From positions 1-22,982 of IMG/VR virus record IMGVR_UViG_3300037109_000101: 22,982 nt of DNA. One strand, given 5' to 3'. Within the stretch, counting starts at the first letter, position 1, and every line of letters starts with the position of its first letter. Below the pieces are notes generated by a model, which worked only from the letters and a program-made list of their open reading frames with translations, was not told the DNA's origin and ran no database searches. Below are positions 1-22,934 of this stretch, in pieces. A program made the position numbers and the translations under genes. This DNA is from a virus.

Positions 1-2979
1 TTGAATGTGTGTTGCGTCAAGGACTTTATAATTTCCTGCCGGAATAGAAACCTGACTACCTTGTATCATTGCATTTCCTTGAATCGCTATGTTTTGTCCG
101 GTTGCAAGGGGCTGAAAATTTCCTTTTCCGTTATAATTAAATTGACCATTTGAAGCAAACGCATACGCGGGAGCACCAGACGCATAGTCAAGCGTGTTTA
201 TTGTAAAGTCTGGCTTGAAATTGGGAGTTACCACATTTCCGTTCGCGTCGGTGTGTGAAACAGATAGTGTTCCGTCTTTATTTTGTGTAAAAGAAACTCC
301 TGGTCCCGCATCCTTAAGCATTGCCACCATTTGAGCCTTTGAAGTGTCGTCAAGTTGCGTAGAAGAATTGATTGCGTAGATACTCGCATCAATCGGATTT
401 ACAAGACGCTTGTCCGTAGCTGCCGACCATTCAGACTTGGTGAACGCAGCAAACCCGGCAGGATTACTTGAAGGGTCGGTCCCGGTCTGAGCTTTCCACC
501 AATCAGACATAACTTGCTGGGCCCCCGCGTCAGTCGTTGGATTCGCGTCAAGATGAGTCGAAGCATACGTTTCAAGTTTCTTTGACGCATCCCAATATTG
601 CGCCGACTCCGCGCTGGCTTCCTGAATGTTCGTAGCTCGATTTTGAATATCGTAGGTGTTTGCAATCTGCGTTCTTTGATTGTCGAGTTCTCCGTTCACC
701 TGCTCGTTTTGTAATTGTAAACTACCTTGTACTCCGGTGTCTGGATTGCCATAAAGCGCATACGCCGCGTTTTTGTCAGCCGCATTCATGGAATCGATTT
801 TTCCAGGAACGTAAGCGCCGGTCGAATTGTCGTAGTATCCAAACAGTTCGTTGTGCTGGTCCTGATAGGTTTTCCCGGCAAGGTCTAACTGCGAAGAGGC
901 TATTTCTAATGATCCGGCAACATGGTTTCCGTTGTCATCGGTATAACCCTTCATTCCGGCTTCCTGAAGCGTCATTCCTTGCTTTTGAATCTCTTGTTCG
1001 TTTGCCTGTAAATCCATTGTTCCCGGCATATGAACCGTGGTCCCGTCGGCCGCAACCACGTCTTTTCCATAGAGCGCGTCGGCCGCGCGCTGATCTTCGG
1101 CGTTAAGCAGAGAGTATTTCTGCTGGATTTCGTCTTTCTGCATGGCAAGGGTGTCGGATTGTAATCCGAATTGTTTTGCCGCGAGTTGTAGACTGCCGTC
1201 GATATATTCCCCGGTATTCGGATCACGATATCCCTTAAGACTGTCAATAGTCGCCCCGGCCTTTTCCGCCTCGATCTGAGCACTACCCTTGACATAATTA
1301 CCGTCGCTGTCGATATACCCTTTAAGGGCTGCATCCTGCAAGGATAGTCCTTGTTTTTGTATAGCAACCTGGTCGTTTTGGATTTCGAGAGAACCCGGAA
1401 TATGGTTTCCGTTTGCGTCGGTGGTCCCAAAAAGAGCCGCGGCCTTCTGCTGGGTTTCCGCGTCCATATTCGCCATCGTTCCCGGACGGAAAATTCCCGA
1501 AGCATCAACACCGCCAAACAACTGAGTGTGAGCGTCGGCAACCGTGGTCGCCTTAAGCCCAAGTTCTCCGGCGGCAATTTCAGCGCTGCCTTGAACGTGT
1601 TGTCCATTCTGGTCGGGATAACCCTCGACCGACGCCTTGTTCAAATCAATTCCCTGCTGTGTCAACCAGTTGGAATCCGCCGCAATCTTTTGGGCGGAAG
1701 TGATCTGCATTTGCGCAATGGTCTGATTGCTGGAAATGTTCATTCCGGCAATCTTTTCGCCCGAAGCAATGCCTTCACGAGTAAGAGTTGCATTCTGAGC
1801 CAATTGACCGTATTGGAAATTAAGACTTTGGCTGTATTCGCTCTTTGATTCTTCAAATTTCGCCTGGTCAAGTCCCAACGAAGCGACAAACTGCTTGTCC
1901 TGTTGATTGAGGTCGGCATAGCTTTTTGCCAACGTCGCTTGAAACTGTGTGGCCGCCTGGTCGGTGGAGATGCCGAACTCCTTGGCCGTTTCCGCCAGTT
2001 TCGCCGTATCCAGGCCGATTGTCTGCGCAAACTGCTGGGTTTGAATTGTGGTCGCCGCAACCGATTTCATGGAATTATACTGATCTGCCGAAAGCGTTCC
2101 CGCGCCATACTGCCCGTTGATCTGATCAACCGTGGCCCCGGTGTTTACCATGTTCTGAATGGCGTTGTATTTATCACTTCCGAGCTTGTCCTGCATCCCC
2201 TGTATGGTAAGGTCTCCGGTCGTAACATCCTGGTTCATCTTAACGTTCCTATAATCCTGGACGGTTTTAAACTGGGAGGTATCAAGGTCCTTGCCAGTTG
2301 CCTGTTTGTAGGCCGCCGCCGCCGTGGCGAAATCGCCAGCCTCCACGGCCTTGTCATACGTGGCCCATCCTTGGGTTTGCGTATTCTGCAATGTCGCAAG
2401 ATTTATCTGCTGTTGTCCTTGACCCGAAGAAACGCCGAATTGCTGAGACTGAGTTTCCATTCCCGCAAGAGTATTTGCCGCTCCTACTCCGGCCTGCTTT
2501 ACCTGTTCGGTGGCAACTTGGTTATTTAAATCGTTTTGGCTTGCCATTCCGAGAATTGTATTTTCCGTGGCGTTCTGATTTGCAATTGCTCCACCCTGCC
2601 CGGCCGCCCCAACACTCTGAGCCGCACTCTTAGCGCGCAGTTCGTTTGCAGCCCGAACAAAACCCTCGTTGTTCTGCGCCAAATTAGGCGCGTAGGATTG
2701 CCCGGACATCATCGATTTAAGCGTCTGCGTGTATTGGTTTGCCAAATCTTCCGGAAGCGTGCTCAATACGCTTGGCGTTGTTTTTGGCGCAGCCCCTCCG
2801 CCCGATCCGCCCGGAGTAAAGGCATCGGTATAGTTTCCGGCGTTGGCCTGAACATCCGCAAGGGTCGATGTTCCCGACGGACTGAACGGCGTACCGGCCC
2901 CCGAAGATGTGGGAGCCAGGTATAAACGATTTGCAACCGTCGGATCGGTAGAATCTACAGGATTTGCAAGGGTAGCCAT
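1..2979 (-). CDS. Giant repeat-containing virion protein, partial (candidate ejection/internal virion protein)
   Basis: This reading frame stays open from an ATG at 2979 to the left window edge, 993 codons without a stop, so the C-terminus lies outside. I checked every triplet. A GGGAGAG Shine-Dalgarno lies 6 bases before the ATG. Residues 1-80 are Gly/Ser/Pro/Ala-rich. Residues about 80-440 are Gln/Ala/Asn-rich and mostly helical-looking (for example TIQTQQFAQTIGLDTAKLAE). Residues about 450-755 hold nine degenerate units with the pattern [KL]-[GFY]-[GY]-x-D-x(2-5)-G-x-[YH]-V-x-G-S, each followed by a helix. The last 240 residues look globular with beta character. It is the most tail-distal gene of the virion module. 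Large Gln/Ala-rich helical proteins in this position of podovirus genomes are often DNA-ejection proteins, but I recognise no specific family; a tail or adhesin role is also possible. Confidence 0.85.
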   Translation of the reverse strand, partial: MATLANPVDSTDPTVANRLYLAPTSSGAGTPFSPSGTSTLADVQANAGNYTDAFTPGGSGGGAAPKTTPSVLSTLPEDLANQYTQTLKSMMSGQSYAPNLAQNNEGFVRAANELRAKSAAQSVGAAGQGGAIANQNATENTILGMASQNDLNNQVATEQVKQAGVGAANTLAGMETQSQQFGVSSGQGQQQINLATLQNTQTQGWATYDKAVEAGDFATAAAAYKQATGKDLDTSQFKTVQDYRNVKMNQDVTTGDLTIQGMQDKLGSDKYNAIQNMVNTGATVDQINGQYGAGTLSADQYNSMKSVAATTIQTQQFAQTIGLDTAKLAETAKEFGISTDQAATQFQATLAKSYADLNQQDKQFVASLGLDQAKFEESKSEYSQSLNFQYGQLAQNATLTREGIASGEKIAGMNISSNQTIAQMQITSAQKIAADSNWLTQQGIDLNKASVEGYPDQNGQHVQGSAEIAAGELGLKATTVADAHTQLFGGVDASGIFRPGTMANMDAETQQKAAALFGTTDANGNHIPGSLEIQNDQVAIQKQGLSLQDAALKGYIDSDGNYVKGSAQIEAEKAGATIDSLKGYRDPNTGEYIDGSLQLAAKQFGLQSDTLAMQKDEIQQKYSLLNAEDQRAADALYGKDVVAADGTTVHMPGTMDLQANEQEIQKQGMTLQEAGMKGYTDDNGNHVAGSLEIASSQLDLAGKTYQDQHNELFGYYDNSTGAYVPGKIDSMNAADKNAAYALYGNPDTGVQGSLQLQNEQVNGELDNQRTQIANTYDIQNRATNIQEASAESAQYWDASKKLETYASTHLDANPTTDAGAQQVMSDWWKAQTGTDPSSNPAGFAAFTKSEWSAATDKRLVNPIDASIYAINSSTQLDDTSKAQMVAMLKDAGPGVSFTQNKDGTLSVSHTDANGNVVTPNFKPDFTINTLDYASGAPAYAFASNGQFNYNGKGNFQPLATGQNIAIQGNAMIQGSQVSIPAGNYKVLDATHIQ
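715..1629 (-). repeat. Nine-unit degenerate protein repeat (GYxDxxGxxVxGS type) within the giant protein
   Basis: Units begin (first base of the K/L/E codon) at about 1626, 1521, 1434, 1323, 1236, 1074, 951, 846 and 756. Examples are KGYIDSDGNYVKGS, KGYTDDNGNHVAGS, LFGTTDANGNHIPGS and LYGNPDTGVQGS. Spacings are 35, 29, 37, 29, 54, 41, 35 and 30 residues. The first three and last three units repeat the same KGY-35-LFG-30-LFG spacing, and units 3 and 6 share an IQKQG(L/M)(S/T)LQ(D/E)A helix, so a multi-unit block appears to have duplicated. The DxDG/DxNG cores resemble calcium-binding loops, but that is only a resemblance. Confidence 0.75.
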
Positions 2980-2997
2980 GGAATTCTCTCCCAAATA

Positions 2998-3366: not shown

Positions 3367-5157
3367 TTATGATGCTACCGCTTTAATAACGATAAATTTT
3401 AAGGGTGTTGCTTCCGTAATCGACGCCGCGCTTATATTTTTAACCGTTACCGACGCCGAACCCGCTGCGCAAACCACTTCAATCGCCCAGCAAGATGCGT
3501 TGGTTGCGCTATTGTGTTGCATTACTACTAAATCTGTTGCCGCCAAAAAGGTGTTTGTCCAAGTAAAAACCGACGTAGCAGCCGCCGCCACTGCCGAGCT
3601 AAACATCGTGATCGTTCCGCAAAGTTTCGAAAGCGTTACTCCGGTTGTTCGACTGGTCCCTTGCGTTGCCGTTCCACCCGCCCCGGTTGCATATCCAATT
3701 CCACCACCCGAGGACGCTATCGCTCCGGTCACGGCCAGCGAGGTTCCCGTGGCCGCGGCAATTGCAGGAGTACCGGTCAATGCCGGAGATGCAAGCGGAG
3801 CAAGAGCGGAATGGCCGGACGAGTCGCCTGTATTGGCCCCAGAAATAGAACTTGCTCCTGCTCCAAGCGAAAGAGAGGCGTTGTCGGTTCCGGACAATGT
3901 AAGCGTATTGCTTACGGTTAATGATTTTCCGTTCGCAACAACAGCGGCCAAATAATCAACGTTCCATGTTCCCGCCGCCACTGAATTTGTAAGAAGAATT
4001 ATTTGCACGTCCGTACCTGGCGCAAGAATTGCCAAGGCTCCGGCTCCGCTTGTTTGCAAGGTGATAATTCCTGTCGAAACATTATCAATTTCAAACTGAG
4101 AAAATTGTGGCAGTGTGGTCGCGTTAGGGAGTACAACCGTTTGGTTTTGCGTGCCAGTAAACCGAATATACCCCGTAATTGATGATGCGGTAAGAGTAGT
4201 AGTTCCCCCGGCGGTCGCAATATCCTGGGAGGTTCTGGCGACATTTTTAGCAAGGATGTTTCCTTGTGCATCGCGCAAAACCACCGAGTTAGCCGTAGCC
4301 GCAGTCGCAAGAGAAACAGCCGTCGGAGTTGCCGCGCTTCCCGTGGTGTTTCCTATCACGCTATTTGCGGCAAGATTGGCCTGTTTGGCAAGCGTTACCG
4401 CACCATTCGCAATGGTAGGGTTTGGATATGTTGAACCGTTCAAATCTCCCCCGGCCGATCCGCTTGGGACCCGCGAATCGCTTAACCGCGAATCATTGCC
4501 GATTGCTACAGTCGTGGCGGTTGCACCGGTTGGAATTTGAGCAATCGGAACTTTGGTCGATCCGTCGAGCCCCGCATACCCGGATGCAGCGCCCTTGTTC
4601 GCCGTTGCTTCCTTGGCGTTCAATGCCGTTTGCGTGGCGCTCGAAATCGGTTTATTGGCATCGCTCGTATTGTCGCAGTTTCCAAGTCCTACATCCGATT
4701 TGCTTGGCGTACTTGCCGCTGCGTCTTCCACACCCGCCGTTACATGCCGCCATCCGGTCCCTGATGGAACGGTAGCCCCGCCAACCGTCGCCCATGTTCC
4801 GTCGTCCTTAAGTAATTTTCCCGACGGCGTTCCGGTCGCGGGAACCCCGCCCCTTTTCGAAGAGGATATTGCCGGAAGACGGTCGCCGTCAAGCGTTCCG
4901 GAAGTAATTATCGAAGCGTCAATTGTTGATGGAGCGGAAGGACCAGGAACCGAAACAGGGACGTTTTCCAGACCGTTCAAGATCGTTCGCAAATCGGTAT
5001 TTGCGTTGATTTTAAATTCCGCGCCGGAAACAATAATTTTCCCTTGCCCCTCAAATTTGATTTTACTCAAAAACGCGGTTGCGTCCGCCAAAAGAGAAAG
5101 CTTCTGCTTAAGGTCGGCAGTGTCTTTGATTACCTGATCAAGAGCGGGATACGACAT
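3367..5157 (-). CDS. Tail fibre protein
   Basis: A 596-aa low-complexity, Ala/Thr/Ser/Gly-rich fibre. Residues 1-30 form a short coiled coil. Residues about 100-125 carry the common fibre motif GGVPATGTPSGKLLKDDGTW, followed by VGLGNCDNTSDANKP near residue 157, a signature seen in many phage tail fibres (VGLGNVDNTSD type). Around residue 450 an ALAPLASPALTGTP segment matches another recurring fibre motif. The last 90 residues, from TSRTTGVTLSKLCGTITM, form a beta-rich tip-like domain often seen at the end of such fibres. The ATG overlaps the upstream stop as TAATG, suggesting translational coupling with the small membrane-protein gene. It presumably makes a trimeric host-recognition fibre; the receptor is unknown. 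Confidence 0.85.
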   Translation of the reverse strand: MSYPALDQVIKDTADLKQKLSLLADATAFLSKIKFEGQGKIIVSGAEFKINANTDLRTILNGLENVPVSVPGPSAPSTIDASIITSGTLDGDRLPAISSSKRGGVPATGTPSGKLLKDDGTWATVGGATVPSGTGWRHVTAGVEDAAASTPSKSDVGLGNCDNTSDANKPISSATQTALNAKEATANKGAASGYAGLDGSTKVPIAQIPTGATATTVAIGNDSRLSDSRVPSGSAGGDLNGSTYPNPTIANGAVTLAKQANLAANSVIGNTTGSAATPTAVSLATAATANSVVLRDAQGNILAKNVARTSQDIATAGGTTTLTASSITGYIRFTGTQNQTVVLPNATTLPQFSQFEIDNVSTGIITLQTSGAGALAILAPGTDVQIILLTNSVAAGTWNVDYLAAVVANGKSLTVSNTLTLSGTDNASLSLGAGASSISGANTGDSSGHSALAPLASPALTGTPAIAAATGTSLAVTGAIASSGGGIGYATGAGGTATQGTSRTTGVTLSKLCGTITMFSSAVAAAATSVFTWTNTFLAATDLVVMQHNSATNASCWAIEVVCAAGSASVTVKNISAASITEATPLKFIVIKAVAS

Positions 5158-5428: not shown

Positions 5429-8400
5429 TTACTCCCATCCATTTTCGCGTGGTGAAGTTCCTGAATAAAATTCTGCTCCAAAATCCTGCATGGGTTCAAT
5501 ATGAAACTCCACGCCTCGGTATTTAAAATTCCCGTCAGCGGGAAGGACTTTATCGATAAGAATATCAAATCCTCTGCCGTAACATCCTTCGGGAGTAACG
5601 ATCTGCAACATTTTCCTGAACCAGTTATACCCGGCTGGAGCAATGGCAGTATCGACAACCTCAGTATAGGCCCCTGGACACTCGAAGCGGTCGCCGTCGG
5701 TAAATAAAACAATGGACAAACCCGCGGCATCAACCAAATCGCAAAAGAGCAGATATTCCGTGCATTCTCCCATCGTTCCGAATTCGGCATCGAGACCGAG
5801 ACGCCGGGATTTTACTTTCAGGTGGTACGGGTACGCCGTGCCGCCGTAATTATCCTGAAAAACTCCTGATTTTAGGAAATTGAATACCCGGTATACGTTA
5901 CTTTTATTTGAAAGGCCATAACAGACATTTCCATCCTTCGGAATCAACACAATCGGGTCGTTCTGATATGCTCCAGCCAGTCCAGGCGCCAGGGTATCCC
6001 GATATGAACCGATATACTTGCCGTCAGGCGAGGCATAAAACCCAAATATGGTCGGAATGGTCTGGCCAGGAACCGCTATTCTCCAAGAATCCTTATGCCA
6101 AAGTGAAAAAACCGTTTCCTTCCATTCTAACGAACGAGGAAGACCCGTGCCGGGATCAACGTGGGTATACCCGTCGTACCACAACTCTGAAAGTCGCATC
6201 GTCTCCAAGACCTCCACAGAGGCCCCTGGACGAAGTACGATCGGACATTTATGAGACAGTCCGAAAACAACCTGTTTAAGTTTCGGATGATCGGCAAAAG
6301 CAATCGTATTCGGGAAATCAATTCCAAGTTCATGGGAAATGGTACGCGGGATATTTGCCGGGTCATGATTGTCGAGAATGCCGATTTTTTGCTCTTTGCA
6401 GAAATAAAGGTCGCCCTGAAAAATGAAGATCCCGGTATCACGTTGACTGTCATTTGGTTCAAATACGATTTTTTGCGTAACGGCCTGGAAAAGCGAAGCG
6501 AATTTTTGAGGGAAAGCCGCATCCGAAGATGCTCCAACAGAATAAAGCCAGTATCCGCCGCCGGTCGAAAGCCAAAGTCTTTCCTGATCCCAACATGCAA
6601 AACGTCCGGCAGGAGAAACCTGAAAGCCGGTAGTATCCAGGGTATTGGTTTCGTAGGTAAGTTCGGCATCGGTCGTTAAGTCATGATAAATTAAATTCGG
6701 ATCAAAAACCCCGGTCAAAGCAAAATCCCGAAGATACCGTAACGAAAGACCGTCGGCCACGGTTTCGCTTGCGTCTCCCAGCGTTCTCCATACTCTGAAA
6801 TGTGTCGCTCCCTGAGCAATTGCATTTACATAATTCATCGGCATTGAAATGAGAGGAATTCCAACGGATGTCGAGCAGACCATAGTCAATGACTGGCGCT
6901 GGTCTACTTGTTCCATGCTTGAATCAATTGTCTCTTCAAAAACGCTGGTGTCAACGCCTAAAGACGTTCTTCGTCTTACGAATGTGCCGGTTATCGAGAA
7001 ATAATAACCACTGGTTATTCCATTAGATAATTTGGTCCAGATAATACCGTCTAAAGAACTATAAATTAAGTGTGAACCTGTTCCAAATATTACCCACATT
7101 TTATTGTTAAAAATCATAGAAGCAGAGTTGTAAGTATCCACAGGAAGCGCGTCGGTTCCCGACTCCGTCCAGGTAATGCCGTCCGAAGATGAATAGACCT
7201 TGCGAGTAGGAGCGGTAGTATATCCTCCAATGACCCACATCTTGTTATTAAAAACCACAGAAGCAGAGTTGTAAGTAGCCACAGGCAGAGCGTCAGTACC
7301 AGATTCAGTCCAGGTAATGCCGTCAGAAGAAGAATAAACCTTACGAACAGCGGTCGTGGTATATCCTCCAATCACCCACATTTTATTGTTAAAAATCACA
7401 GAAGCAGAGTGGTAAGTAGCCACGGGTAGCGCGTCGGTTCCCGATTCTGTCCAAGTAGTACCATCAGAAGAAGAATAAACCTTACGGGTGGCAATGCCTC
7501 CTGTGAGAAGCCCTCCAATCACCCACATTTTGTTATTAAAAATTAAAGAGGTATGCATACAAGTAGCCACGGGTAGCGCGTCGGTTCCCGATTCTGTCCA
7601 AGTAATTCCGTCAGAAGAAGAATAAACCTTACGGATGGCATTACCTCCGGTATATCCTCCAATCACCCACATCTTGTTATTAAAAACTAAAGAGGTATGA
7701 TAATAAGTAGCCACAGGTAACGCGTCGGTTCCCGATTCTGTCCAAGTAATTCCGTCAGAAGAAGAATAAACCTTACGGGTGGCAGAAGAGGTTGCTCCAC
7801 CAATTACCCACATCTTATTATTAAAAACCACAGAAGAGTGACCGTAAATATTTAAAGTCAAATTCGAAACATCCGCATCCGCCGTCATATACGGATTCAA
7901 CGACGGTACGCAATCAATCCCCCATGCCCGTAGTCCCCATGCGCTTCCCGTCCAATAAATAATCATGTTCCTTTTCAAATACGGAAACGTGTAATTCGTC
8001 GTGATTGCGGTATCGAACAAACAATAGATCGAACTATAAATTTTCAGCATGGAAAAATGAGCGGTCGCCGAAGCAAAAAGCGCGCTCATTAAAATCGTGC
8101 GGGTATGGTCGGTAATATTAACTACTTCGAGGTTGTAAACCGTGGCCGTGGTAACATTCTGCGTCCAATTGAACAGGTATTCTTTTCCATCCGGGCCGAT
8201 CATGTAAACTGCTTCCGGAGTATAGTTCGTGTGTTCGGAACCATACCCTCGCGCCGTGCCCTCCGTAAAAATATCGACAAGGGCCTCGCGCGGATCGAGC
8301 GGGTCGATAGGAGTGCAGTTCTCAAGCAGTTGGCATTCCCCTTGCTTGAGTGTAAGCGGATCATCGAGGGAGTTCATTCCCTGATAATATCCGCTTGTTC

Positions 8401-8434
8401 CACTGTCGGCGCTTCGATCAGGTAGTTTTATCAT
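5429..8434 (-). CDS. Tail nozzle-like protein with inserted Kelch-type repeats
   Basis: 1001 aa. The N-terminal 195 residues (with GYYQGMNSLDDPLTLKQGEC near residue 15) and the C-terminal 500 residues, rich in beta strands (LWLSTGGGYWLYSVG, IFIFQGDLYFCKEQKIGIL), read like the large beta-propeller nozzle (gp12/tail tubular B type) proteins of short-tailed phages. That assignment rests on general sequence character, size and position, not on a recognised family motif. Residues about 199-480 hold six Kelch-type units. The ATG directly abuts the previous stop (TAAATG), with only a weak Shine-Dalgarno, so translation is probably coupled to the upstream connector gene. The last residues (TSPRENGWE) end 2 bases before the next ATG. 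Confidence 0.75.
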   Translation of the reverse strand: MIKLPDRSADSGTSGYYQGMNSLDDPLTLKQGECQLLENCTPIDPLDPREALVDIFTEGTARGYGSEHTNYTPEAVYMIGPDGKEYLFNWTQNVTTATVYNLEVVNITDHTRTILMSALFASATAHFSMLKIYSSIYCLFDTAITTNYTFPYLKRNMIIYWTGSAWGLRAWGIDCVPSLNPYMTADADVSNLTLNIYGHSSVVFNNKMWVIGGATSSATRKVYSSSDGITWTESGTDALPVATYYHTSLVFNNKMWVIGGYTGGNAIRKVYSSSDGITWTESGTDALPVATCMHTSLIFNNKMWVIGGLLTGGIATRKVYSSSDGTTWTESGTDALPVATYHSASVIFNNKMWVIGGYTTTAVRKVYSSSDGITWTESGTDALPVATYNSASVVFNNKMWVIGGYTTAPTRKVYSSSDGITWTESGTDALPVDTYNSASMIFNNKMWVIFGTGSHLIYSSLDGIIWTKLSNGITSGYYFSITGTFVRRRTSLGVDTSVFEETIDSSMEQVDQRQSLTMVCSTSVGIPLISMPMNYVNAIAQGATHFRVWRTLGDASETVADGLSLRYLRDFALTGVFDPNLIYHDLTTDAELTYETNTLDTTGFQVSPAGRFACWDQERLWLSTGGGYWLYSVGASSDAAFPQKFASLFQAVTQKIVFEPNDSQRDTGIFIFQGDLYFCKEQKIGILDNHDPANIPRTISHELGIDFPNTIAFADHPKLKQVVFGLSHKCPIVLRPGASVEVLETMRLSELWYDGYTHVDPGTGLPRSLEWKETVFSLWHKDSWRIAVPGQTIPTIFGFYASPDGKYIGSYRDTLAPGLAGAYQNDPIVLIPKDGNVCYGLSNKSNVYRVFNFLKSGVFQDNYGGTAYPYHLKVKSRRLGLDAEFGTMGECTEYLLFCDLVDAAGLSIVLFTDGDRFECPGAYTEVVDTAIAPAGYNWFRKMLQIVTPEGCYGRGFDILIDKVLPADGNFKYRGVEFHIEPMQDFGAEFYSGTSPRENGWE
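6990..7840 (-). repeat. Six Kelch-type propeller repeats within the nozzle-like gene
   Basis: Six in-frame units of about 46-48 residues, each beginning with a variant of [SA]S(L/V/I/M)(V/I)FNNKMWVIGG, then a variable 5-8 residue loop, then RKVYSSSDGITWTESGTD and ALPVAT. The last unit is degenerate (FNNKMWVIFGTG, then YSSLDGIIWTK). The SSSDGxTW piece resembles an Asp-box. Between units the protein sequence is almost invariant outside the loop, while many third codon positions differ: for example VYSSSDG is spelled differently at about 7165-7185 and 7305-7325. Confidence 0.9.
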
Positions 8435-10165
8435 TTAAACATCGTCCGCATCAGGAAAGATGTCGATTTCGGAATCGTCCATCATGCCGATCCATCGACG
8501 AGACCGAACATCCGTTTGATTGCCGCCCGATAAAAATTCGTCGCGTACTTTCATAAGCACCTTGTCGAAATACGTATGCCAACCTTTTGCAATAGGAGCG
8601 TCAGGCCCGGAAGGAAGCTGTTCAAAGCCAAGCATGGACAACCCGGCGCGCATGATCTGATGTTCGTGATTATTATTTATCGGGATTTCGTCGGTAGTCG
8701 CCTCGATTTCAACGAAACTTCCTTTGTACGAAAGCATGATATAGTTGTCCGGCGAAACGATGACCGCAGAGGTTATGTCTGAACCGATACCCAACGCAGT
8801 TGACAATAAATGATAGTAATAAAGTTTTGTCGCCCGGCCTACGCTTGCGTCGTTTCCGGCAATTGCAAGCGTATTCCCTGCCTGGTTCCCGGCAGTTACG
8901 ACAAGGAGGTAATCTTTTAAATCGTCTTGATTGCGAGCCAATGACGACATCGTCCAAATGTAACCAATGCCAGCCACCGCCGTCTGTACGGTTCCATCGG
9001 AGGATATTGCTATTCCATGCCAGTTTTGTGATGTTGCTTTCTGCGTCCAGGTATTTCCTGAATCGGTCGAAACCCAAATGTATCCGCCGTAAACCGTTGC
9101 AGTTTGAATAACACCGTCGGAGGACATCGCTACAGCGTACCAATTCAACGATGTTGCTTTCTGCGTCCAGGTATTTCCTGAATCGGTCGAAACCCAGATG
9201 TACCCGCCGTTGACCACCGCCGTTTGCTTAACACCGTCGGAGGACATCGCTACAGCGTACCAATTCAACGATGTTGCTTTCTGCGTCCAGTTTGCTCCCG
9301 AATCCGTCGAAACCCAAATGTAACCAATGCCAGCCACCGCCGTCTGTACGGTTCCATCGGAGGATATTGCTATTCCACGCCAGTTTGGTGATGTTGCTTT
9401 CTGCGTCCAGGTATTTCCTGAATCGGTCGAAACCCAGATGTACCCGCCTTTGACCACCGCAGTTTGAATAACACCGTCGGAGGACATCGCTACAGCGTAC
9501 CAATTCAACGATGTTGCTTTCTGCGTCCAGGTATTTCCTGAATCGGTCGAAACCCAAATGTATCCGCCGTAAACCACCGCCGTTTGCTTAACACCGTCGG
9601 AGGACATCGCTACAGCGTACCAATTCAACGATGTTGCTTTCTGCGTCCAGGTATTTCCTGAATCGGTCGAAACCCAGATGTACCCGCCGTTGACCACCGC
9701 CGTTTGCTTAACACCGTCGGAGGACATCGCTACAGCGTACCAATTCAAACTTTGAGCAACCTGAATCCATGAATTATCCAAATTAGGAACGTTATTCGAA
9801 TTCAAATCGCAAATCGTAATTGAATCTATATTGGAATTTGAGAACACAAGCGGAACAATCGGCGCGGGATCTTCGTCAACGGTGGCGTTCGTGAGCATCA
9901 ATTTTCCGTCATCTTCAATAAACGGAAATTCGGAATTATAATCCGTGGGAGAAAACAACTTCTTTGCCTGCCGATAATTCGCAGGAGGGGTAATCCATTT
10001 TTTGTATTTTACGATTACCCCTTTTTGATAAGACAACTCCCTCAGAATTCTTTCACTCGATAATATCTCAAGGATATTATTCGCGGCAGAAATCCAGAAA
10101 GCGTCTCCGTATTTTTGCTTCAATATCGGCGGCAATTGTGCGACGTATGATGCAAGGGTAGGCAT
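8435..10165 (-). CDS. Connector/tail-adaptor-like protein with inserted BNR-type propeller
   Basis: 576 aa. Residues 1-130 (SYVAQLPPILKQKYGDAFWI near the N-terminus) and about 410-576 (including NQAGNTLAIAGNDASVGRAT) are unique sequence. Residues about 133-412 are seven tandem 40-residue BNR/Asp-box units. The position, between head genes and the nozzle-like gene, and the bipartite unique sequence suggest a head-tail adaptor or tail-tubular protein interrupted by a propeller; this is inference, as I recognise no defining motif in the flanks. The ATG at 10165 starts 4 bases after the previous stop with only a weak upstream GAG, so coupling is likely. The C-terminus is acidic (DDSEIDIFPDADDV), and the stop is immediately followed by the next ATG. 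Confidence 0.75.
   Translation of the reverse strand: MPTLASYVAQLPPILKQKYGDAFWISAANNILEILSSERILRELSYQKGVIVKYKKWITPPANYRQAKKLFSPTDYNSEFPFIEDDGKLMLTNATVDEDPAPIVPLVFSNSNIDSITICDLNSNNVPNLDNSWIQVAQSLNWYAVAMSSDGVKQTAVVNGGYIWVSTDSGNTWTQKATSLNWYAVAMSSDGVKQTAVVYGGYIWVSTDSGNTWTQKATSLNWYAVAMSSDGVIQTAVVKGGYIWVSTDSGNTWTQKATSPNWRGIAISSDGTVQTAVAGIGYIWVSTDSGANWTQKATSLNWYAVAMSSDGVKQTAVVNGGYIWVSTDSGNTWTQKATSLNWYAVAMSSDGVIQTATVYGGYIWVSTDSGNTWTQKATSQNWHGIAISSDGTVQTAVAGIGYIWTMSSLARNQDDLKDYLLVVTAGNQAGNTLAIAGNDASVGRATKLYYYHLLSTALGIGSDITSAVIVSPDNYIMLSYKGSFVEIEATTDEIPINNNHEHQIMRAGLSMLGFEQLPSGPDAPIAKGWHTYFDKVLMKVRDEFLSGGNQTDVRSRRWIGMMDDSEIDIFPDADDV
8950..9765 (-). repeat. Seven 120-bp tandem repeats encoding a BNR/Asp-box beta-propeller
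   Basis: The period is exactly 120 bases (40 codons). The unit consensus includes NWYAVAMSSDG, QTAVVxGGYIWVSTDSG and NTWTQKATS; STDSGNTW is a canonical Asp-box (S-x-D-x-G-x-T-W). From N- to C-terminus the units are A, A, A, B, A, A, B, where B has NW(R/H)GIAISSDG and QTAVAGIGYIW. Units 1 and 5 are identical over almost 90 bases (9661-9748 and 9181-9268). Differences among the A units concentrate in two codons: K or I after SSDGV, and N, Y or K before GGYIW. Seven blades is a usual closed-propeller number. Confidence 0.92.
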
Positions 10166-11518: not shown

Positions 11519-12802
11519 TTACGCCGCGAACGCTTTCTCAACACCGGGATCAAACCACCATCCGACGGCAATACTATCGCAATCGAATTCGGTCCGTCCG
11601 TCTTTAGCTAACCAGTCGCGCCGTACAAAGCCGTCATCCCAATGCAGGGCGTACTCGTATTGGTCCTTATGCTGATCGACTTGCGCGGCCGTTACCCACA
11701 TGCGCCGATCCGTTGCCCGAAGAATGGCGCCGGGCCCCATCCAAATCTGACAGCAGATTTTCTGGGTGTTAACGTAGGTCCGAGGGTCGGCCGTGATGCC
11801 GGGTCCGTAAATCGGGTTTGTACTTACGGATGCGCGGAACTTCTTGAGCTGTTCGCAGGGGATATACATGACGTCATCCAGAACGATAGGGCTCATACTG
11901 TCGATCGAGGGACTGTCGAAACCCTTGCCCATGAACGCGGAACGCATCTTCATATCGTAGTCTCCACTCGTCGCCGCAAGCCGGGCAATCAACCACGGAT
12001 CGGAAAGGACAACAGCGTTCAACGATTTCCCGCCGACTTCACTTTTCTTGAAGAAAAGCGATCCGATCAAGTCAAGCATGAGGTTATGCTGCTTGTAGTT
12101 GAAGGCATAGAGCGCGTTGTCGCTGAGTCCGGATAACGCCGTGCCAACGGACGCTTCGAACGTCGCCCGAGTGGTATTCTGGGTCACGAGACCGTTACCC
12201 ACAACGTAGGTATTCCAGCATGACCGAGTTTGGCCGGCACTGCAACCCGGCAGAGTGATTCCAAGGCCGCCGCGCGTTGTCGAGAGAAGGTTTTTCGAAG
12301 CTCCCATCAGGCAGGAAATAAGAAATTCCCAATCGATTTCACCGGAGGACCACACTTCGAGCCCATTCAGCGCATCGCCTTTGGGGTCGTTGAGAATGTC
12401 CTTGACCTGTTTGAGGCTGCATCGACCGGGAACCGGCACGGCTTCCGAATCGATCTGGTTGACCCACACCTGGGAATGTTTGTATTTGTCGTAGTTTCCG
12501 GTCTGTACGGGATAATCGCCATAACCCGACGGCATGCCCGCCCGGTTCTCGATCATGGTGATACGGGATTCATTCCCCGAAGAAATCTCCGTTTCCCATA
12601 TACAGCTCGAATTTCCGACGAACACGTTTTGCGTTTTGTTTCCAAAGCGCAAAATCTGCGTGCTCATTTTCCGATTTCCGTTAAGCTTTCCCACAATGGT
12701 ATTGTAGGTTGACTTAACGTAAATTTCCTTCTCTCGTTTCGGGACTACGATATACGCATTATTCGTATCCCCTGCGTTTCCCCATGTTTGTTGACCAGCC
12801 AT
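11519..12802 (-). CDS. Major capsid protein
   Basis: 427 aa, the usual size for an HK97-fold capsid subunit, and directly downstream of the scaffold gene. ATG at 12802 has CAGGAGG 8 bases upstream. The N-terminus (YIVVPKREKEIYVKSTYNTI) resembles an N-arm. The middle has ESRITMIENRAGMPSGYGDY and a helix near IDWEFLISCLMG. The second half contains VVLSDPWLIARLAATSGDYD followed by SPIVLDDVMYIPCEQ and WMGPGAILRATDRRMWVTAA, a layout that recalls the N4-gp56 type of capsid family. I base the assignment on position, size and this resemblance; the exact family needs a profile search. The C-terminus (WWFDPGVEKAFAA) is short and non-acidic. Confidence 0.85.
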   Translation of the reverse strand: MAGQQTWGNAGDTNNAYIVVPKREKEIYVKSTYNTIVGKLNGNRKMSTQILRFGNKTQNVFVGNSSCIWETEISSGNESRITMIENRAGMPSGYGDYPVQTGNYDKYKHSQVWVNQIDSEAVPVPGRCSLKQVKDILNDPKGDALNGLEVWSSGEIDWEFLISCLMGASKNLLSTTRGGLGITLPGCSAGQTRSCWNTYVVGNGLVTQNTTRATFEASVGTALSGLSDNALYAFNYKQHNLMLDLIGSLFFKKSEVGGKSLNAVVLSDPWLIARLAATSGDYDMKMRSAFMGKGFDSPSIDSMSPIVLDDVMYIPCEQLKKFRASVSTNPIYGPGITADPRTYVNTQKICCQIWMGPGAILRATDRRMWVTAAQVDQHKDQYEYALHWDDGFVRRDWLAKDGRTEFDCDSIAVGWWFDPGVEKAFAA

Positions 12803-14078: not shown

Positions 14079-16346
14079 CTACCCTTGACTGGATGGTTGT
14101 GGTTGATTTTGTGGTTGAGGTGGTTGTGGTTGAGGTGGTTGTTGGTTTTGTAATTCCTGAGCCGCTGGAACCTCAGCTCCGGGATCTTGAGACGCAGGGA
14201 GCGCGCCTTGTGATTCCGGTGGTAATTGCTGGGGAGGCGGAGTGAAATACCCGATTTCATTTAGTAACTGAGCCAACATCGGAAACTGCGCAAGCTGTTC
14301 GCCGGTAACCGAGAACATGATTTTGCTTGCCCTGATTCTGTCGGCTTCGTTTTTAAGTTTCTGTAAACGCTCATTAGCGTCAAGCATCTGCTTGGTTTGT
14401 GCCTGCTGTTGTTGAGCTTGCGCTCGACCTTGGGCGGCCGACAATAGTTTTTTCCCGGCGTCCTGCAGAATTCTATTCGGCAGCGACATCATGAAATATG
14501 CCAAGGTCTCGCCGCTCGGATCGATTGCGGAAAGCGGGCCAGGGACCGCATTTAAGAAGACAATTGCTTGCCGCTGTTCTTCTGCCTTTGCCGTCGGTGA
14601 ATCATCAACCGGCTGAAGTTTGAATTTAAAATTATGAGCGGTCAAATCGTTTGCCACTCCGATTATTTCCCCGGTAATGTCGGAAACAGGAGCATTGATT
14701 TCGACGCTTTTTTTCTGACTTGTTTTTTCGTCAACGATTTCGATGATGTCAAACTGGTCATATCCGTAAGGAATGAGTGAACATTTTAAGTCCTGGAATT
14801 CTTCCCACCAATTATTGAAGTTTTCAACATAGTCGGTTTGGGCAACCATACCTTGAGCAATTTCCATTGATTTTGCCACGCCGGATTGATCACCTTGGGA
14901 AGCCCCTTGCATACTCTGGTTCAACCGGGTTTCTTCTTCAATATCCGCCTTGACTTTTTGGGCATACTCAAGGGTTGCAGAGTTTGGTTTACGTTGAATA
15001 TTCTTAGCCACATTGTCAAGAGGCCCGGGAAAATCTCCTTTTATAAAAACAGTACCATTGCTTTTTGATACTTCTGTTTGAAAGTCGTCGATGTTCGCAA
15101 TATACCCGTTTCGTAAAAGCCAAATACTTCCTGATCCCTTCATCACTTCGTCAAGGAATTCCGTTTCGGCGCAAGCCGCTTTCAGAACATTGCTCAACAT
15201 TTTTTCACCGGGCCCGCAGATGTCCGCGTCGATCATAGCGGGCCAATATGCCGCGCCAGGCATGCGACCGTTTTCTTGATACCAATGGTGTTGGTTTTGA
15301 ACCATGAGCCCGGAAGATGTTCCAGTCGTTTCCCACAGGGCAGTCACGAGGCGCTCGTCTTCCGAATATTCAATTCCGTCTTTGTCTTTCTTTTCCTGAA
15401 TAAAAGCGTTCCATCGTTCAACGTCCCAATCCGGCGGCCGAATATGAAAGTCGTTTGGATTTTCCAGGTTGATCGCAATTTTTTCTTTACGTTTAATTTG
15501 AAAAACCCGCTTGATTACTTCGTAAAAAGAATCAGGCATTACAATCGATGACCGCCCGCTAACCATAATGGAAAAAAGTGTTGACCGATTCTCTGAAGAA
15601 AGCTGTGTATTCCACTCTGAAATGGAAGATTCAAGTTCGTAATCTTTGTCCTTCAAGTTTTGACGATGGGCTTTGATCTGTTCTTCCATTTTCGGATAAT
15701 AATCGATGAGTTCGGCCTCCTTGAGGAACGACCGATAAGAAACGCAGGTGATGTCTTGAGAGTAAAGAAAATTAAAAGGAGCCACCGCGACGGAGTCCCA
15801 GGGTAGGAGAGTTGCTTTCAGGACCCCTTCTCCCTTTGACGGTGACTCCTTCTCGATCCATGCCCAATTCGGGAAACAACTTATGAGCGCGTTGTGAAGT
15901 AAATCCTTTTCAAGTTGCCGCTCCTTGAATTTTTTCTCCATATCCTTCATGACAATCGACGCAATTTCGCAGGCCATCGCGCTTTCATTTGGATTGTCAA
16001 GACTTCCGCCTTCGGTCGTGATTGATCCGGACCGTCGCCCACGAAGTATCTGTCCTATCAATGAGTAAATGCGCTGTTCCACGAGACGCGGTTCAACGCA
16101 CAACTTATCTTCCTTGGCATATTTCTTTCGTTGTTTCGAGGTAAAGATGTTCCCTTTTTCATAGTTGAAACAGGTCTTTCCCCTATCGTAATAAGGCTTC
16201 CAATACGAAAACATCCTATCCGAAATCAACATGTGGCGAGTCCAAAGAAGGCGCATTAAATCGTCGTCCCACTCGCGGCCATCAATGGTGATGTCGTCCT
16301 CACTGATTTCGTAAGGAGAAAATTTTCCTGTTATTGACTCGGCCAT
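14079..16346 (-). CDS. Portal protein (P22-like size)
   Basis: 755 aa from the ATG at 16346, one base after the terL stop, with GGAG 6 bases upstream; a TTG at 16367 in frame is less likely because it would sit inside terL with no Shine-Dalgarno. It would form the dodecameric DNA channel at one capsid vertex and dock the terminase and tail. Features: an N-terminal helical region (DDDLMRLLWTRHMLISDRMF), LVEQRIYSLIGQILRGRRSG, an aromatic/Gly-rich core (MVQNQHHWYQENGRMPGAAY), the segment NSATLEYAQKVKADIEEETR, then a long C-terminal helix (AQGRAQAQQQQAQTKQMLDA) as in portals with a barrel. The last 70 residues are Pro/Gln-rich. Its length is close to the P22 portal (725 aa). Confidence 0.85.
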   Translation of the reverse strand: MAESITGKFSPYEISEDDITIDGREWDDDLMRLLWTRHMLISDRMFSYWKPYYDRGKTCFNYEKGNIFTSKQRKKYAKEDKLCVEPRLVEQRIYSLIGQILRGRRSGSITTEGGSLDNPNESAMACEIASIVMKDMEKKFKERQLEKDLLHNALISCFPNWAWIEKESPSKGEGVLKATLLPWDSVAVAPFNFLYSQDITCVSYRSFLKEAELIDYYPKMEEQIKAHRQNLKDKDYELESSISEWNTQLSSENRSTLFSIMVSGRSSIVMPDSFYEVIKRVFQIKRKEKIAINLENPNDFHIRPPDWDVERWNAFIQEKKDKDGIEYSEDERLVTALWETTGTSSGLMVQNQHHWYQENGRMPGAAYWPAMIDADICGPGEKMLSNVLKAACAETEFLDEVMKGSGSIWLLRNGYIANIDDFQTEVSKSNGTVFIKGDFPGPLDNVAKNIQRKPNSATLEYAQKVKADIEEETRLNQSMQGASQGDQSGVAKSMEIAQGMVAQTDYVENFNNWWEEFQDLKCSLIPYGYDQFDIIEIVDEKTSQKKSVEINAPVSDITGEIIGVANDLTAHNFKFKLQPVDDSPTAKAEEQRQAIVFLNAVPGPLSAIDPSGETLAYFMMSLPNRILQDAGKKLLSAAQGRAQAQQQQAQTKQMLDANERLQKLKNEADRIRASKIMFSVTGEQLAQFPMLAQLLNEIGYFTPPPQQLPPESQGALPASQDPGAEVPAAQELQNQQPPQPQPPQPQNQPQPSSQG

Positions 16347-16347
16347 C

Positions 16348-18123
16348 TTATGCTCCAGCACCAACAAACGAAACGAAACGGCGCCCCTTTAATCTTTCCT
16401 TTGGAATCTCATACGGTCCGTCGTAATCTTCCCTGCTTTTTCGAATCCGGGAATAATCGTCCCCTTCGATAGACTTCAATCCGCATAATTCATCAAACGT
16501 TTTTCCTGAAGTGAATACCGTTCCATACCTGATGATGTCCATGCCGTCCTTATATTTTTTATCGATGGACTCATTGACCGCGGTCGTAACATCCTTACGC
16601 GCCTTGCGTCCATAAAACTTGCACGAATTAATCAGGTTCTCGCAGTTTGACGTGAAGTCCATTCCTGGTTGAGCAAGGATGTCCGATGGGTCGGTCTTTG
16701 CCACTCGCTTATCGAAATACAGCGCCGAATGAATTTGCTGATGTCCAAACTCCAAATTATCCCGAACGAAACAATTAAACGAAAACCCATGCGGTACATA
16801 GAGAGCCCATAGCGCGAGATTATCGCGCGAGTCCGCGGTCATAAACCTGTTCGGGTCGCCGATCCGCGTAACGACCTGGTCGGAAATTCCGAGACGCGAT
16901 TCAAGCGCCGTCCACTCCGCGCATATTTCCGCAATAGTCTTATTCCTCGAACTCAATTTTTCCCAAGGAAGATGCGGCCATTCCTCAAACCAGTGTTTGC
17001 GTCCAAGGTGATCAACAAAGAAATATCCCGCAAGGTCCGGCTTCACAGGGTGCGGGTCAACCACCTGAAACACTGGAACATTTCGAGGAATAACTCGGGA
17101 AGGACATACGTGAATATTGATATTAAACGTCTTAAATTCCGCTCCAAACGTCTGGGTATTCGCTCCCCAAATACGCGCCTCGATCTGATTTGGGTCCGTC
17201 CGCTCAAAAAAATGTATCTGGTTTTCAATCGACGACCTGGTCAGATGTCCATACGTGAGATAGTGGCCGGCGGTATCTTTTTCCAGTACAACGTTAAGCT
17301 TTTCCTCTAACTGGTCCGCAATGTCCTGAGTAATTTCCTCCCCAACGCAGTTTTCCCAAATAGACCCTTGAACAAAAACAATCTTTCCTTTAAAAAACTC
17401 GTCGTCCTGTAAATCAAAAATCCACGTTGCCACATCCAAAATCGTCGCGTTCATCAGAATCGTACACTGCACTTGTCCTTTTTGCGACCGTATCCTCGAT
17501 ATTGTTTCCGCAAACACCGGATAAGGCGGAGGCTCATTGATCCCAATTCGATGCAGATTCGCCCCGGCGTGCGTCGTTACTTCCTGATCAAACGTTTTTA
17601 TATCAACGTAATTTTTTACCGAAGGATTCGAAGGTAATGGAATCTCTATCTGTTTATACGATCCCGTCGACGTCTTTCCTTTAAAATTTGCAGTCGGAAT
17701 ATATTTTTTGATCTCAACGTAAAGCGACCCGCCCTCTTTCATGTCCTCCGGACCACAAAGCAGTCGATACTGAAACTCTCCCTTTTCCCGCAACTCCCGG
17801 CAATCGTGATAATACCGATAATGCGTCATTCCTATCGACTTTCCGTCTGGTCCTGCGTTCCAACAGTCATTCAAAAACTCAGGTCCACACAGACACCCAA
17901 CCAAATCCACAGGAACAACGTTCGTCTTTCCTGTTCCGTTTCCGCACGACGATACCACCATAAACGGATACGGCCCCTTCTCCCACGGCGCCATAATGCG
18001 ACGTTGAGCCGTATTAGGCACGTGTCCAAGCGTCGGGTATAGTCTTACCATCTCCCGAACCGCTTCAAGAAGCGTTGTGCCTTCCAACGGCGATTTAACG
18101 TCGATTTTAGCGATCGGTTTCAC
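16348..18123 (-). CDS. terL: Terminase large subunit
   Basis: 591 aa, GTG start at 18123 overlapping the upstream stop (GTGA) with GAGGAAA 8 bases before it. It would power DNA packaging (ATPase) and cut concatemers (RNase H-fold nuclease). Walker A is GNGTGKT at residues 61-67. The likely Walker B is HRIGINEPPP at 191-200, where the usual Asp before the catalytic Glu is Asn (N196, codon AAT). A coupling-motif candidate is MNAT at 224-227. The nuclease domain begins near VVDPHPVKPD (D356), then WFEEW (E380/E381) and IGDPN (D423), with later acidic residues DPSD. It follows small genes and is immediately before the portal, the standard arrangement. terL is used as a generic symbol. Confidence 0.92.
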   Translation of the reverse strand: MKPIAKIDVKSPLEGTTLLEAVREMVRLYPTLGHVPNTAQRRIMAPWEKGPYPFMVVSSCGNGTGKTNVVPVDLVGCLCGPEFLNDCWNAGPDGKSIGMTHYRYYHDCRELREKGEFQYRLLCGPEDMKEGGSLYVEIKKYIPTANFKGKTSTGSYKQIEIPLPSNPSVKNYVDIKTFDQEVTTHAGANLHRIGINEPPPYPVFAETISRIRSQKGQVQCTILMNATILDVATWIFDLQDDEFFKGKIVFVQGSIWENCVGEEITQDIADQLEEKLNVVLEKDTAGHYLTYGHLTRSSIENQIHFFERTDPNQIEARIWGANTQTFGAEFKTFNINIHVCPSRVIPRNVPVFQVVDPHPVKPDLAGYFFVDHLGRKHWFEEWPHLPWEKLSSRNKTIAEICAEWTALESRLGISDQVVTRIGDPNRFMTADSRDNLALWALYVPHGFSFNCFVRDNLEFGHQQIHSALYFDKRVAKTDPSDILAQPGMDFTSNCENLINSCKFYGRKARKDVTTAVNESIDKKYKDGMDIIRYGTVFTSGKTFDELCGLKSIEGDDYSRIRKSREDYDGPYEIPKERLKGRRFVSFVGAGA

Positions 18124-19829: not shown

Positions 19830-19848
19830 AGGTGTTGTGTTGGAGGGG

Positions 19849-20084
19849 AAAATTGGGAGGTTTTTTGTGGAAAATACTGTTAAAGATGATAGTCAACCCT
19901 CAAAAGTTTTGAGGGTTGAAATGGAAAATTGGGAGGTTTTTTGTGGAAAATACTGTTAAAGATGATAGTCAACCCTCAAAAGTTTTGAGGGTTGAAATGG
20001 TAAATTGGGAGGTTTTTTGTGGAAAATACTGTTAAAGATGATAGTCAACCCTCAAAAGTTTTGAGGGTTGAAATGGAAAATTAA
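19849..20084 (+). repeat. Three 76-bp tandem units, each with a 27-base perfect hairpin
   Basis: Units start at 19849, 19925 and 20001, with an 8-base partial fourth at 20077. They are nearly identical (one A-to-T change at 20001). Each contains TCAACCCTCAAAA, one G, and the exact complement TTTTGAGGGTTGA, and also GGGAGG, six T and a GTG. As 76 is not a multiple of 3, this is not a protein repeat in one frame. Each GTG instead opens a separate short frame: 30 codons at 19867-19959 and 19943-20035, and 21 codons at 20019-20084. Translation is unproven. Confidence 0.9.
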
Positions 20085-20654: not shown

Positions 20655-20873
20655 ATGGAAGCGGAAAAGGAAAAGCAGTATACCTGCTTGCGCTGCGATC
20701 ATGGTTGGAATTCTCGATGTCCAGATCATGAGGACTTTAAAAAATGGAAGCCAATACTTTGCCCGGCATGTAAAAGTCCGTATTGGAATAAAGAAAAACG
20801 CACTTCAGAAAAGAGTGTTTCAGAAAAGAGTGTTTCAGAAAAACCATTAACGCCAGAGGAGGCCTTATCATGA
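20655..20873 (+). CDS. Small zinc-ribbon protein
   Basis: 72 aa, ATG at 20655 with GGGGAGG 4 bases upstream. Two CxxC pairs form a zinc ribbon: CLRC (residues 11-14) and CPAC (36-39) in a frame YTCLRCDHGW ... LCPACKSPYWNK, a pattern common in small bacterial and phage zinc-ribbon proteins. The last 20 residues are low-complexity (SEKSVSEKSVSEKP) from a 15-bp DNA repeat. First gene of the rightward operon; its stop overlaps the next ATG (ATGA). Probably a nucleic-acid or protein-binding regulator; exact role unknown. Confidence 0.8.
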   Translation: MEAEKEKQYTCLRCDHGWNSRCPDHEDFKKWKPILCPACKSPYWNKEKRTSEKSVSEKSVSEKPLTPEEALS

Positions 20874-21439
20874 ACGAACTTGATTTCGTCTATTCGGGAA
20901 AAAACGTCAGGGTTTTACAGATCAACGATGAACCATGGTGGATTGCAAGCGACGTTTGCGAGGTGTTAGGGCTGGAAAATATTACGATGGCACTTCAAAA
21001 ACTCGATAGTGATGAAAGGGACACCGTCGTTAAAAGCGAAGGTCAAAATGGTCCTGATCGCAATATCATCTCCGAATCCGGCCTTTATACGCTCATTATC
21101 CGCTCAAACAAGCCTGAAGCGCACGCTTTTCGGCGTTGGATCACGCACGACGTCTTACCGTCGATCAGAAAAACTGGGAAATTTGCGGTCAAAAACCCTG
21201 TACCAGAGGGAAAAGTCGTGAATTTATTCGATTTTAACGATGAACCGACAATGGTTCCGATGATTAAATCTAAGAGAAAAATTCCCGAAGTTTTCATCGC
21301 CGACGACTTTGTGAACCTTAGGCTTTCTGAATATGCCTTTAAGATGTTGCAGTACAAGCACGACGACCTATCTCAAAAAATGGGATTTAATCACACGTAT
21401 TCAGACGTGATTTTACATCTTATACGGAGGGACCTATGA
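20870..21439 (+). CDS. BRO-N domain protein (antirepressor-like)
   Basis: 189 aa, ATG at 20870 after GAGGAGG with a 7-base spacer. Residues 1-105 match the BRO-N (Bro family N-terminal) domain: VRVLQINDEPWWIASDVCEV, LGLENITMALQKLDSDERDT, ISESGLYTLIIRSNKPEAHA, FRRWITHDVLPSIRKTGKFA. In phages these DNA-binding domains occur in antirepressors and other regulators. The C-terminal 85 residues are different from the usual KilA/ANT partner: IADDFVNLRLSEYAFKMLQY followed by a helical tail, and I do not recognise them. It overlaps both neighbours by four bases, so it is part of one operon. Likely a switch regulator. Confidence 0.88.
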   Translation: MNELDFVYSGKNVRVLQINDEPWWIASDVCEVLGLENITMALQKLDSDERDTVVKSEGQNGPDRNIISESGLYTLIIRSNKPEAHAFRRWITHDVLPSIRKTGKFAVKNPVPEGKVVNLFDFNDEPTMVPMIKSKRKIPEVFIADDFVNLRLSEYAFKMLQYKHDDLSQKMGFNHTYSDVILHLIRRDL

Positions 21440-21936: not shown

Positions 21937-22428
21937 GTGATACGCAAAATACTTCGCAAACGGCATGCCAGCAAGAAAATCTCTCCCTCACTTGAAAAAT
22001 TCATCGACCGTATTGATGGCATATTATTCGACACCGGCCACGTCTGCATGGCCTGCCTGCGCCCGATCTGGCAGCAACACGAGACGGCAATGATCGGAAA
22101 AGGTCACTACCATCTCTCGTGCGCCACGCGCCGGCACGAGCTTCGAGCTAAGTCACATATATTTCATAAATGCAAGGCTTGTGGCAAAATTGCAATCTAT
22201 GGTGTTTGCCCGTCGTGCGGGTTTGGAGTTGCTTGTATGGGTTGCTGGAAGGTCCGCCAGGGTGATGACTCATGGCGCATCGCATTGTCTCCTATAGTTG
22301 TATCCCATGGCATTTGCCCGGATTGTCTTAAACAGCATCACCCGAAGATTTATACGAAATTGCAGCAGATCATTCAGATCGCCGCAGAAACAGGTATATC
22401 GGTCGAGGAAATCGAGGCGGCGCTATGA
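21937..22428 (+). CDS. Multi-zinc-site regulatory protein, 163 aa
   Basis: GTG start at 21937 with AGAAGG 5 bases upstream. It has about six zinc-binding half sites: CMAC, HLSC (HYHLSCATRRH), CKAC, CPSC, CMGC and CPDC. The C-terminal half, CMGCWKVRQGDDSW ... SHGICPDCLKQHHP, matches a zinc-ribbon family with C-x2-C-(K)-(V/I)-R-x2-D-x-W and (S/T)HGICP-x-C, often found next to sensor or signalling domains. The final residues form a short helix with EEIEAAL. The stop overlaps the next gene (ATGA). With the following sigma-like gene it may act in transcription control; the target is unknown. Confidence 0.8.
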   Translation: MIRKILRKRHASKKISPSLEKFIDRIDGILFDTGHVCMACLRPIWQQHETAMIGKGHYHLSCATRRHELRAKSHIFHKCKACGKIAIYGVCPSCGFGVACMGCWKVRQGDDSWRIALSPIVVSHGICPDCLKQHHPKIYTKLQQIIQIAAETGISVEEIEAAL

Positions 22429-22934
22429 TAACCCTCACTGAGCTTATCAACGTTGGTGAGCCGTTTCCGCGCAAAAAACCAGTAGTTTTTAAGTCTGAGT
22501 ACGATCTCATTAAAAAATACGGCCTCACGCTCGACGAAATCGAGGCCGGACTGAAAAAACACGCGCTCGTTCGAAAGAAATTCATTCTGGACCTGAGCCA
22601 CATGTTTTTAACAGAGATCCCGCACGACGCTTTATTTGCCGGATACACCGCAGATAAAATCCGGACCGCGATCATCGACTCGATGCGCGAACAGGCTGTA
22701 AACGACATCATCGCCGATTACGTCGAAGGTCTCCCGCATGAGGAAATAGCGAAAATGCTCGGGATTACGAACACGGCATCGAGACAACTGTTAAGCAGGG
22801 CCACTAAAAAACTGAAAGAAACCAGCGGAGCATCGTTATTTGAGGCGTTGACGCAATTAAACACCCTGAAAAACCGTAGCGGAAATTATCGAATCACCAT
22901 GCGCCAGAAAATTACTATCCGAATCGATGATTAA
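22425..22934 (+). CDS. Sigma-region-4-like helix-turn-helix protein (candidate late regulator)
   Basis: 169 aa, ATG at 22425 overlapping the upstream stop. Residues 105-135, DIIADYVEGLPHEEIAKMLG then ITNTASRQLLSRATKKLKE, form a sigma-70 region 4 type helix-turn-helix (EGLPHEEIAxxLGIxxxxxRxxLxRAxxKLKE). The N-terminal 100 residues are helical and contain the segment YGLTLDEIEAGLKKHALVRK, similar in style to the C-terminal helix of the preceding protein (ETGISVEEIEAAL). A region 2 (promoter -10 binding) is not evident, so it may be a truncated sigma-like activator rather than a full sigma factor. A role in switching on the leftward late genes is plausible. Confidence 0.8.
   Translation: MITLTELINVGEPFPRKKPVVFKSEYDLIKKYGLTLDEIEAGLKKHALVRKKFILDLSHMFLTEIPHDALFAGYTADKIRTAIIDSMREQAVNDIIADYVEGLPHEEIAKMLGITNTASRQLLSRATKKLKETSGASLFEALTQLNTLKNRSGNYRITMRQKITIRIDD

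Follow-up and report, generated by a model that had tools for sequence, protein, structure and literature searches.

Tandem propeller arrays in two adjoining late genes

The window, by which we mean the whole stretch of DNA analysed here, is a virus record of 22,982 bases in which the late genes all lie on the minus strand. These run from candidate small and large terminase genes through the portal gene and candidate scaffold and capsid genes to genes for a 243-aa, a 155-aa, a 576-aa and a 1001-aa protein, a small gene and a fibre-like protein. The portal protein (14079..16367, minus strand) is of P22 type, matching PF16510 (P22_portal, E 9e-23, 81 bits against a cut-off of 26) and phrog_156. 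The probable major capsid protein (MCP; 11519..12802, minus strand) is named from its position after portal and scaffold; it is 97.7% identical in the related contig L003 and had no family match in PHROG or Pfam. The fibre-like protein (3367..5157, minus strand) has tail-fibre and minor tail matches in PHROG and a match to DUF5907. Sizes and order fit the P22-like series terminase-portal-scaffold-coat-adaptor-nozzle, in which position is the only guide to scaffold, coat, adaptor and nozzle. The 576-aa protein (8435..10165, minus strand) stands in the adaptor position, the order portal, scaffold, MCP, 243 aa, 155 aa, 576 aa, 1001 aa being as in P22 and T7, and the 1001-aa protein (5429..8434, minus strand) follows it directly in the nozzle position. 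The junction reads GAT GTT TAA ATG ATA, with the stop codon of the first gene abutting the start codon of the second (TAAATG).

The 576-aa protein consists of an N-terminal flank (aa 1-137, 9755..10165, minus strand) that is conserved in L003, an array of seven Asp-box (BNR) units of 40 aa each with unit 7 incomplete (about aa 138-402, 8960..9754, minus strand), and a C-terminal flank (aa 408-576, 8438..8944, minus strand). Tandem Repeats Finder, Pfam BNR_6 and unit comparison delimit the array: the repeat at 9030-9748 was reported with period 120 (score 1053) and also with period 360 (score 1311), BNR_6 scored 29.5 bits against a cut-off of 27, and the motif S-x-D-x-G-x-x-W is present in six full copies and one incomplete unit. 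With regard to a sialidase or other glycoside hydrolase, Pfam gave no GH family match; the near identity of the units would speak against a built active site.

In the 1001-aa protein the N-terminal flank (aa 1-196, 7847..8434, minus strand), which probably forms a platform and the first blades of a nozzle propeller, is followed by six Kelch/Asp-box hybrid units of 47-49 aa (about aa 197-476, 7007..7846, minus strand), of which unit 6 is degenerate. The array was located by Tandem Repeats Finder (7092-7836, period 141, score 812), by Pfam Kelch_1 and Kelch_KLHDC2, and from the units themselves; Kelch_1 scored 63.5 bits (cut-off 20.1) and PF24681 69.8 bits (cut-off 50). Given the scores of 1053/1311 and 812, the arrays in the two genes are not due to chance. 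The C-terminal flank (aa 477-1001, 5432..7006, minus strand) had no family or PDB match and may comprise an Ig-like segment and the remainder of the nozzle propeller. The protein in all probability has an intrinsic propeller of its own besides the Kelch array.

A first-pass annotation of this DNA had proposed two adjoining, coupled genes with a different tandem propeller domain in each, and the reading frames, repeat detection, Pfam matches and gene junction all bear this out. The annotation had also called the two propeller families unrelated. They are indeed distinct in sequence, but an Asp-box (YSSSDGITWT) is also present in every Kelch unit, and a profile comparison of the Asp-box unit with the Kelch unit produced an alignment at the Asp-box motif only. 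Judged by sequence, the arrays represent two repeat families within one broad type of propeller and are not cleanly unrelated. Propellers with hybrid blades, in which an Asp-box and a second propeller motif occur in one blade, were predicted in 2009 (PMC2716378). The Kelch units of the window resemble these in joining both motifs within each blade; the examples described there are cellular (an archaeal kelch hybrid and bacterial Reg_prop hybrid blades), whereas those of the window are viral.

Identity of the carrier proteins

Several searches addressed the identity of the flanks. The 1001-aa protein, whole or as joined flanks, matched neither PF11134 nor phrog_578, with PHROG hits considered up to E 10, and the flanks of the 576-aa protein matched none of the adaptor profiles PF24175, phrog_2941 and phrog_12985; leave-one-out controls with SU10 and CV-1-33 also missed. 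Nozzle and adaptor profiles and hhalign gave no signal with the flanks of either protein, and here too the positive controls (T7 against SU10) missed; the T7 and SU10 nozzles have no detectable sequence similarity to each other (PMC9509320). The flanks of both proteins had no match among PDB chains, and tblastn of the flanks in 50,697 phage records returned nothing. AlphaFold runs from two-row alignments, reflecting the few relatives, gave pLDDT values of 35 (576-aa protein) and 28 (1001-aa protein), and these models were unusable.

The suggestion that the flanks are conserved parts of the tail machine is upheld in one respect: the late-operon position fits an adaptor and a nozzle. Profile matching did not add to it, in a test that the T7 and SU10 controls also fail. 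From gene order and size we infer that the 576-aa protein is the adaptor and the 1001-aa protein the nozzle. The alternative that retains most weight, which we nevertheless regard as unlikely, is that both are structural proteins of another kind, for example neck, fibre-attachment or capsid-associated proteins, bearing arrays as many phage fibres do. Flanks lacking profile, Pfam, PHROG and PDB matches would be expected under this alternative, and Asp-box arrays elsewhere occur in fibre-type proteins. Position, order and coupling nevertheless agree with the adaptor-nozzle pairs of P22 and T7, the 243-aa and 155-aa proteins are the only other adaptor or nozzle candidates between the MCP and fibre genes, and true gp10 nozzles with Kelch insertions exist (see below).

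Array variation among near relatives

Protein and alignment searches of viral and genome collections, using the nozzle C-terminal flank, terminase, capsid and adaptor C-terminal flank as queries, recovered two near relatives, L002 and L003. L002 is almost identical to the window, without any difference in terminase, portal and scaffold, and its array likewise numbers seven Asp-box units. At the DNA level L003 and the window are 77% identical. Both contigs end inside the two genes, L002 before the Kelch region. The L003 homologue of the 576-aa protein is 416 aa long; both of its flanks are about 77% identical to those of the window, and its array, at the same site, has three units in place of seven. 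In the L003 nozzle homologue, identity is about 81% as far as the common insertion point, after which the sequence continues into Kelch units until the contig ends. An in-frame stop codon lies within this Kelch array near the contig end (L003:13808-13810) and reflects either a sequencing error or a truncated nozzle.

The insertion site is common to the window and L003, and the Asp-box array is variable. The earlier description of conserved flanks interrupted by arrays holds to the extent that flanks and sites are shared while unit number changes, but a relative of the window phage with an empty site, lacking either array, was not present among the relatives found. Three Asp-box units cannot close a propeller within one chain, which leaves a collapsed contig, a propeller shared between chains or a non-closed array in L003. 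The pairing of Asp-box and Kelch arrays was found nowhere besides the window phage and L003.

Within the window the Asp-box units are 89-98% identical in DNA, leaving out the divergent units 4 and 7, as against 68-77% between window units and the two full L003 units. In the sequenced part of the gene, six of the eight differences between the window and L002 fall within 13 bases of unit 2, where the unit-6 type of sequence gives way to the unit-1/5 type. This patch is most simply explained by exchange between units, an assembly choice between repeats being the alternative. The similarity of units within a genome, the patch in unit 2 and the change from seven to three units would also be expected if the arrays were tolerated, selfishly spreading tandem repeats that have no binding role and drift in number by recombination. 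We consider this account distinctly improbable: the frames are open in the window, the units keep their propeller motifs, the number of Kelch units stays at six, which suits a closed propeller, and a like module is retained in the nozzles of three lineages. Somewhat less probable still is that the unit numbers are assembly artefacts, from collapsed or expanded repeats. These are metagenome contigs, two of which end in the genes in question, one with the in-frame stop noted above; yet the window and L002, which are separate contigs, both give seven units, and the arrays are present wherever the contigs reach.

Related modules in other phages

The closest Asp-box arrays are those of L012 (59.5% identity over 269 aa), whose carrier has tail-fibre matches, and of L014 (60.8%). 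The closest Kelch array, in L036/L041, is 56.7% identical over 270 aa and 71% identical in DNA over 266 bases, and its carrier has weak tail matches. Because the nearest arrays sit in other phages and in other, unrelated tail genes, the modules appear to travel independently of their carriers. Asp-box blades are shared with known virion proteins, namely the propellers of phage tail fibres and of K1F endosialidase (PMC2716378; L011-L014), and the array of the window is about 60% identical to those of L012 and L014; those propellers belong to fibre, spike or other proteins, whereas the array of the window lies in an adaptor-position protein. The Kelch proteins of jumbo phage CBB (PMC5259590) are virion proteins too, and that study calls the presence of such a domain unusual in phages; they are, however, accessory structural proteins in their own right, and CBB is a large myovirus.

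One viral contig (IMGVR_UViG_3300033153_007511) contains very long Kelch/Asp-box arrays (L031:5422-8070 and L033:1-1944), with ten Kelch_1 stretches found by Pfam in the L031 part alone. The 'outer capsid protein' of phiVC8 was considered as a precedent for an adaptor insertion and set aside; it has Asp-boxes, but its gene follows the fibre genes.

Kelch insertions in gp10-type nozzles

A search of viral contigs with a DNA pattern for the Kelch core returned 16 stretches. In two of these, L042 and L039, the C-terminal part of the protein matches phrog_578, 'head closure Hc3', which is the P22 gp10 family (P22 gp10 itself matches phrog_578 with E 3e-227, 756 bits). When the L042 flanks were joined without the Kelch part, residues 5-472 matched phrog_578 positions 5-473 of 486 in one stretch (E 9e-30). 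Because the joined flanks cover the gp10 profile end to end, the L042 protein is a complete nozzle into which a Kelch domain has been inserted. For L039 the match of the flanks extends over a portion of the profile (153-446), and relatives of gp10 that have no Kelch domain are present in several phages. That a Kelch domain can be inserted in a nozzle is thereby confirmed in two unrelated contigs.

These gp10-type nozzles (PF11134, phrog_578) share with the 1001-aa protein a Kelch/Asp-box propeller in the N-terminal part of a short-tail nozzle. They differ from it in that their flanks are recognisably gp10, whereas those of the window have no such match, and identity between their Kelch modules and that of the window is only 29-34%. 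The gene preceding the L042 nozzle belongs to PHROG 12985, as does a gene of MW202796 annotated as tail adaptor; this adaptor-type neighbour has no Asp-box array, unlike the 576-aa protein.

Insertions of other domains in nozzle proteins are known. In SU10, four Ig-like domains are inserted between blades 2 and 3 of the propeller of the nozzle gp17 itself and form the tail tip (PMC9509320); the likeness to the window lies in the extra domains, which in SU10 are Ig-like and not a second propeller. T7 gp11/gp12 and crAss001 gp43/gp44 (PMC6702177, PMC10172136) are likewise adjoining genes for an adaptor or ring protein and a nozzle or muzzle protein, and the nozzle propellers of T7 and crAss001 are interrupted by a distal domain, as may be the case in the nozzle-position protein of the window. 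In contrast to the window, these pairs carry no Kelch or Asp-box array, and they have no detectable sequence similarity to its proteins. An intrinsic seven-bladed propeller is known from the nozzles of T7, SU10 and crAss001 (PMC6702177, PMC9509320, PMC10172136), a precedent for supposing that the Kelch array is the diverged intrinsic propeller of the nozzle and not an insertion, but this is very improbable because the Kelch part of L042 is additional to flanks that span the whole gp10 profile and because about 520 aa, enough for an intrinsic propeller, remain after the array in the window.

In the literature available for searching, no paper on a nozzle or adaptor with a Kelch, BNR or Asp-box insertion was found. 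Nozzle domain insertions as such are known, and the Kelch domain in the nozzle is a variant of them that recurs in unrelated phages. The Asp-box array in the neighbouring protein, an adaptor by position alone, appears to be new.

A proposed pair of surface-binding modules on a short tail

The explanation that we favour, and hold to be probable, is that the window derives from a P22-like short-tailed phage in which the adaptor ring (576 aa) and the nozzle (1001 aa) have each acquired a β-propeller module that binds surfaces. In the nozzle, a six-bladed Kelch/Asp-box propeller would sit between early intrinsic blades, where other nozzles carry tip or nozzle domains, and six copies would be displayed near the tail tip. 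In the adaptor, the Asp-box array would lie mid-chain with a variable number of units, and twelve copies would surround the top of the tail. The arrays would act as binding modules on the virion surface, for glycans or other cell-surface partners. Propeller modules may be swapped between phage tail genes, with similarity among units kept by exchange between them. Acquisition by insertion, symmetry, the copy numbers of 12 and 6, virion placement and surface binding are drawn here by analogy with known short tails and should be read as predictions. More tentatively, and with rather less confidence than we place in the modules themselves, the two rings could decorate a single vertex in two stacked tiers, of twelve and six copies, where recombination would vary surface binding and leave the channel proteins unchanged.

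The channel-forming parts of short tails accept propeller modules, as fibres and spikes do, and the Kelch insertion in the nozzle arose in, or was passed on to, more than a single lineage of phages. Should the binding role be true, nozzle and adaptor would be host-range determinants that are overlooked when annotation considers fibres only. The Kelch units of the window are also a clean instance, in a virus, of the hybrid blades whose existence was predicted in 2009.

Other features of the window

A 998-aa protein at 1-2994 (minus strand), open at the window edge, contains diverged internal repeats (GYxDxNGxxVxGSxxIxxxxxxL) that alternate with longer units; it had no PHROG match, and its TPR match was below threshold. 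Genes on the early side encode a protein with a sigma-70 region 4 domain (22425-22934, plus strand) and a Bro-N protein (20870-21439, plus strand). A direct repeat of 76 bp, with 3.1 copies at 98%, is located at 19847-20082 and contains the inverted repeat CAACCCTCAAAAGTTTTGAGGGTTG. At this repeat the near-identical contig L002 is shorter by 152 bp, corresponding to two copies.
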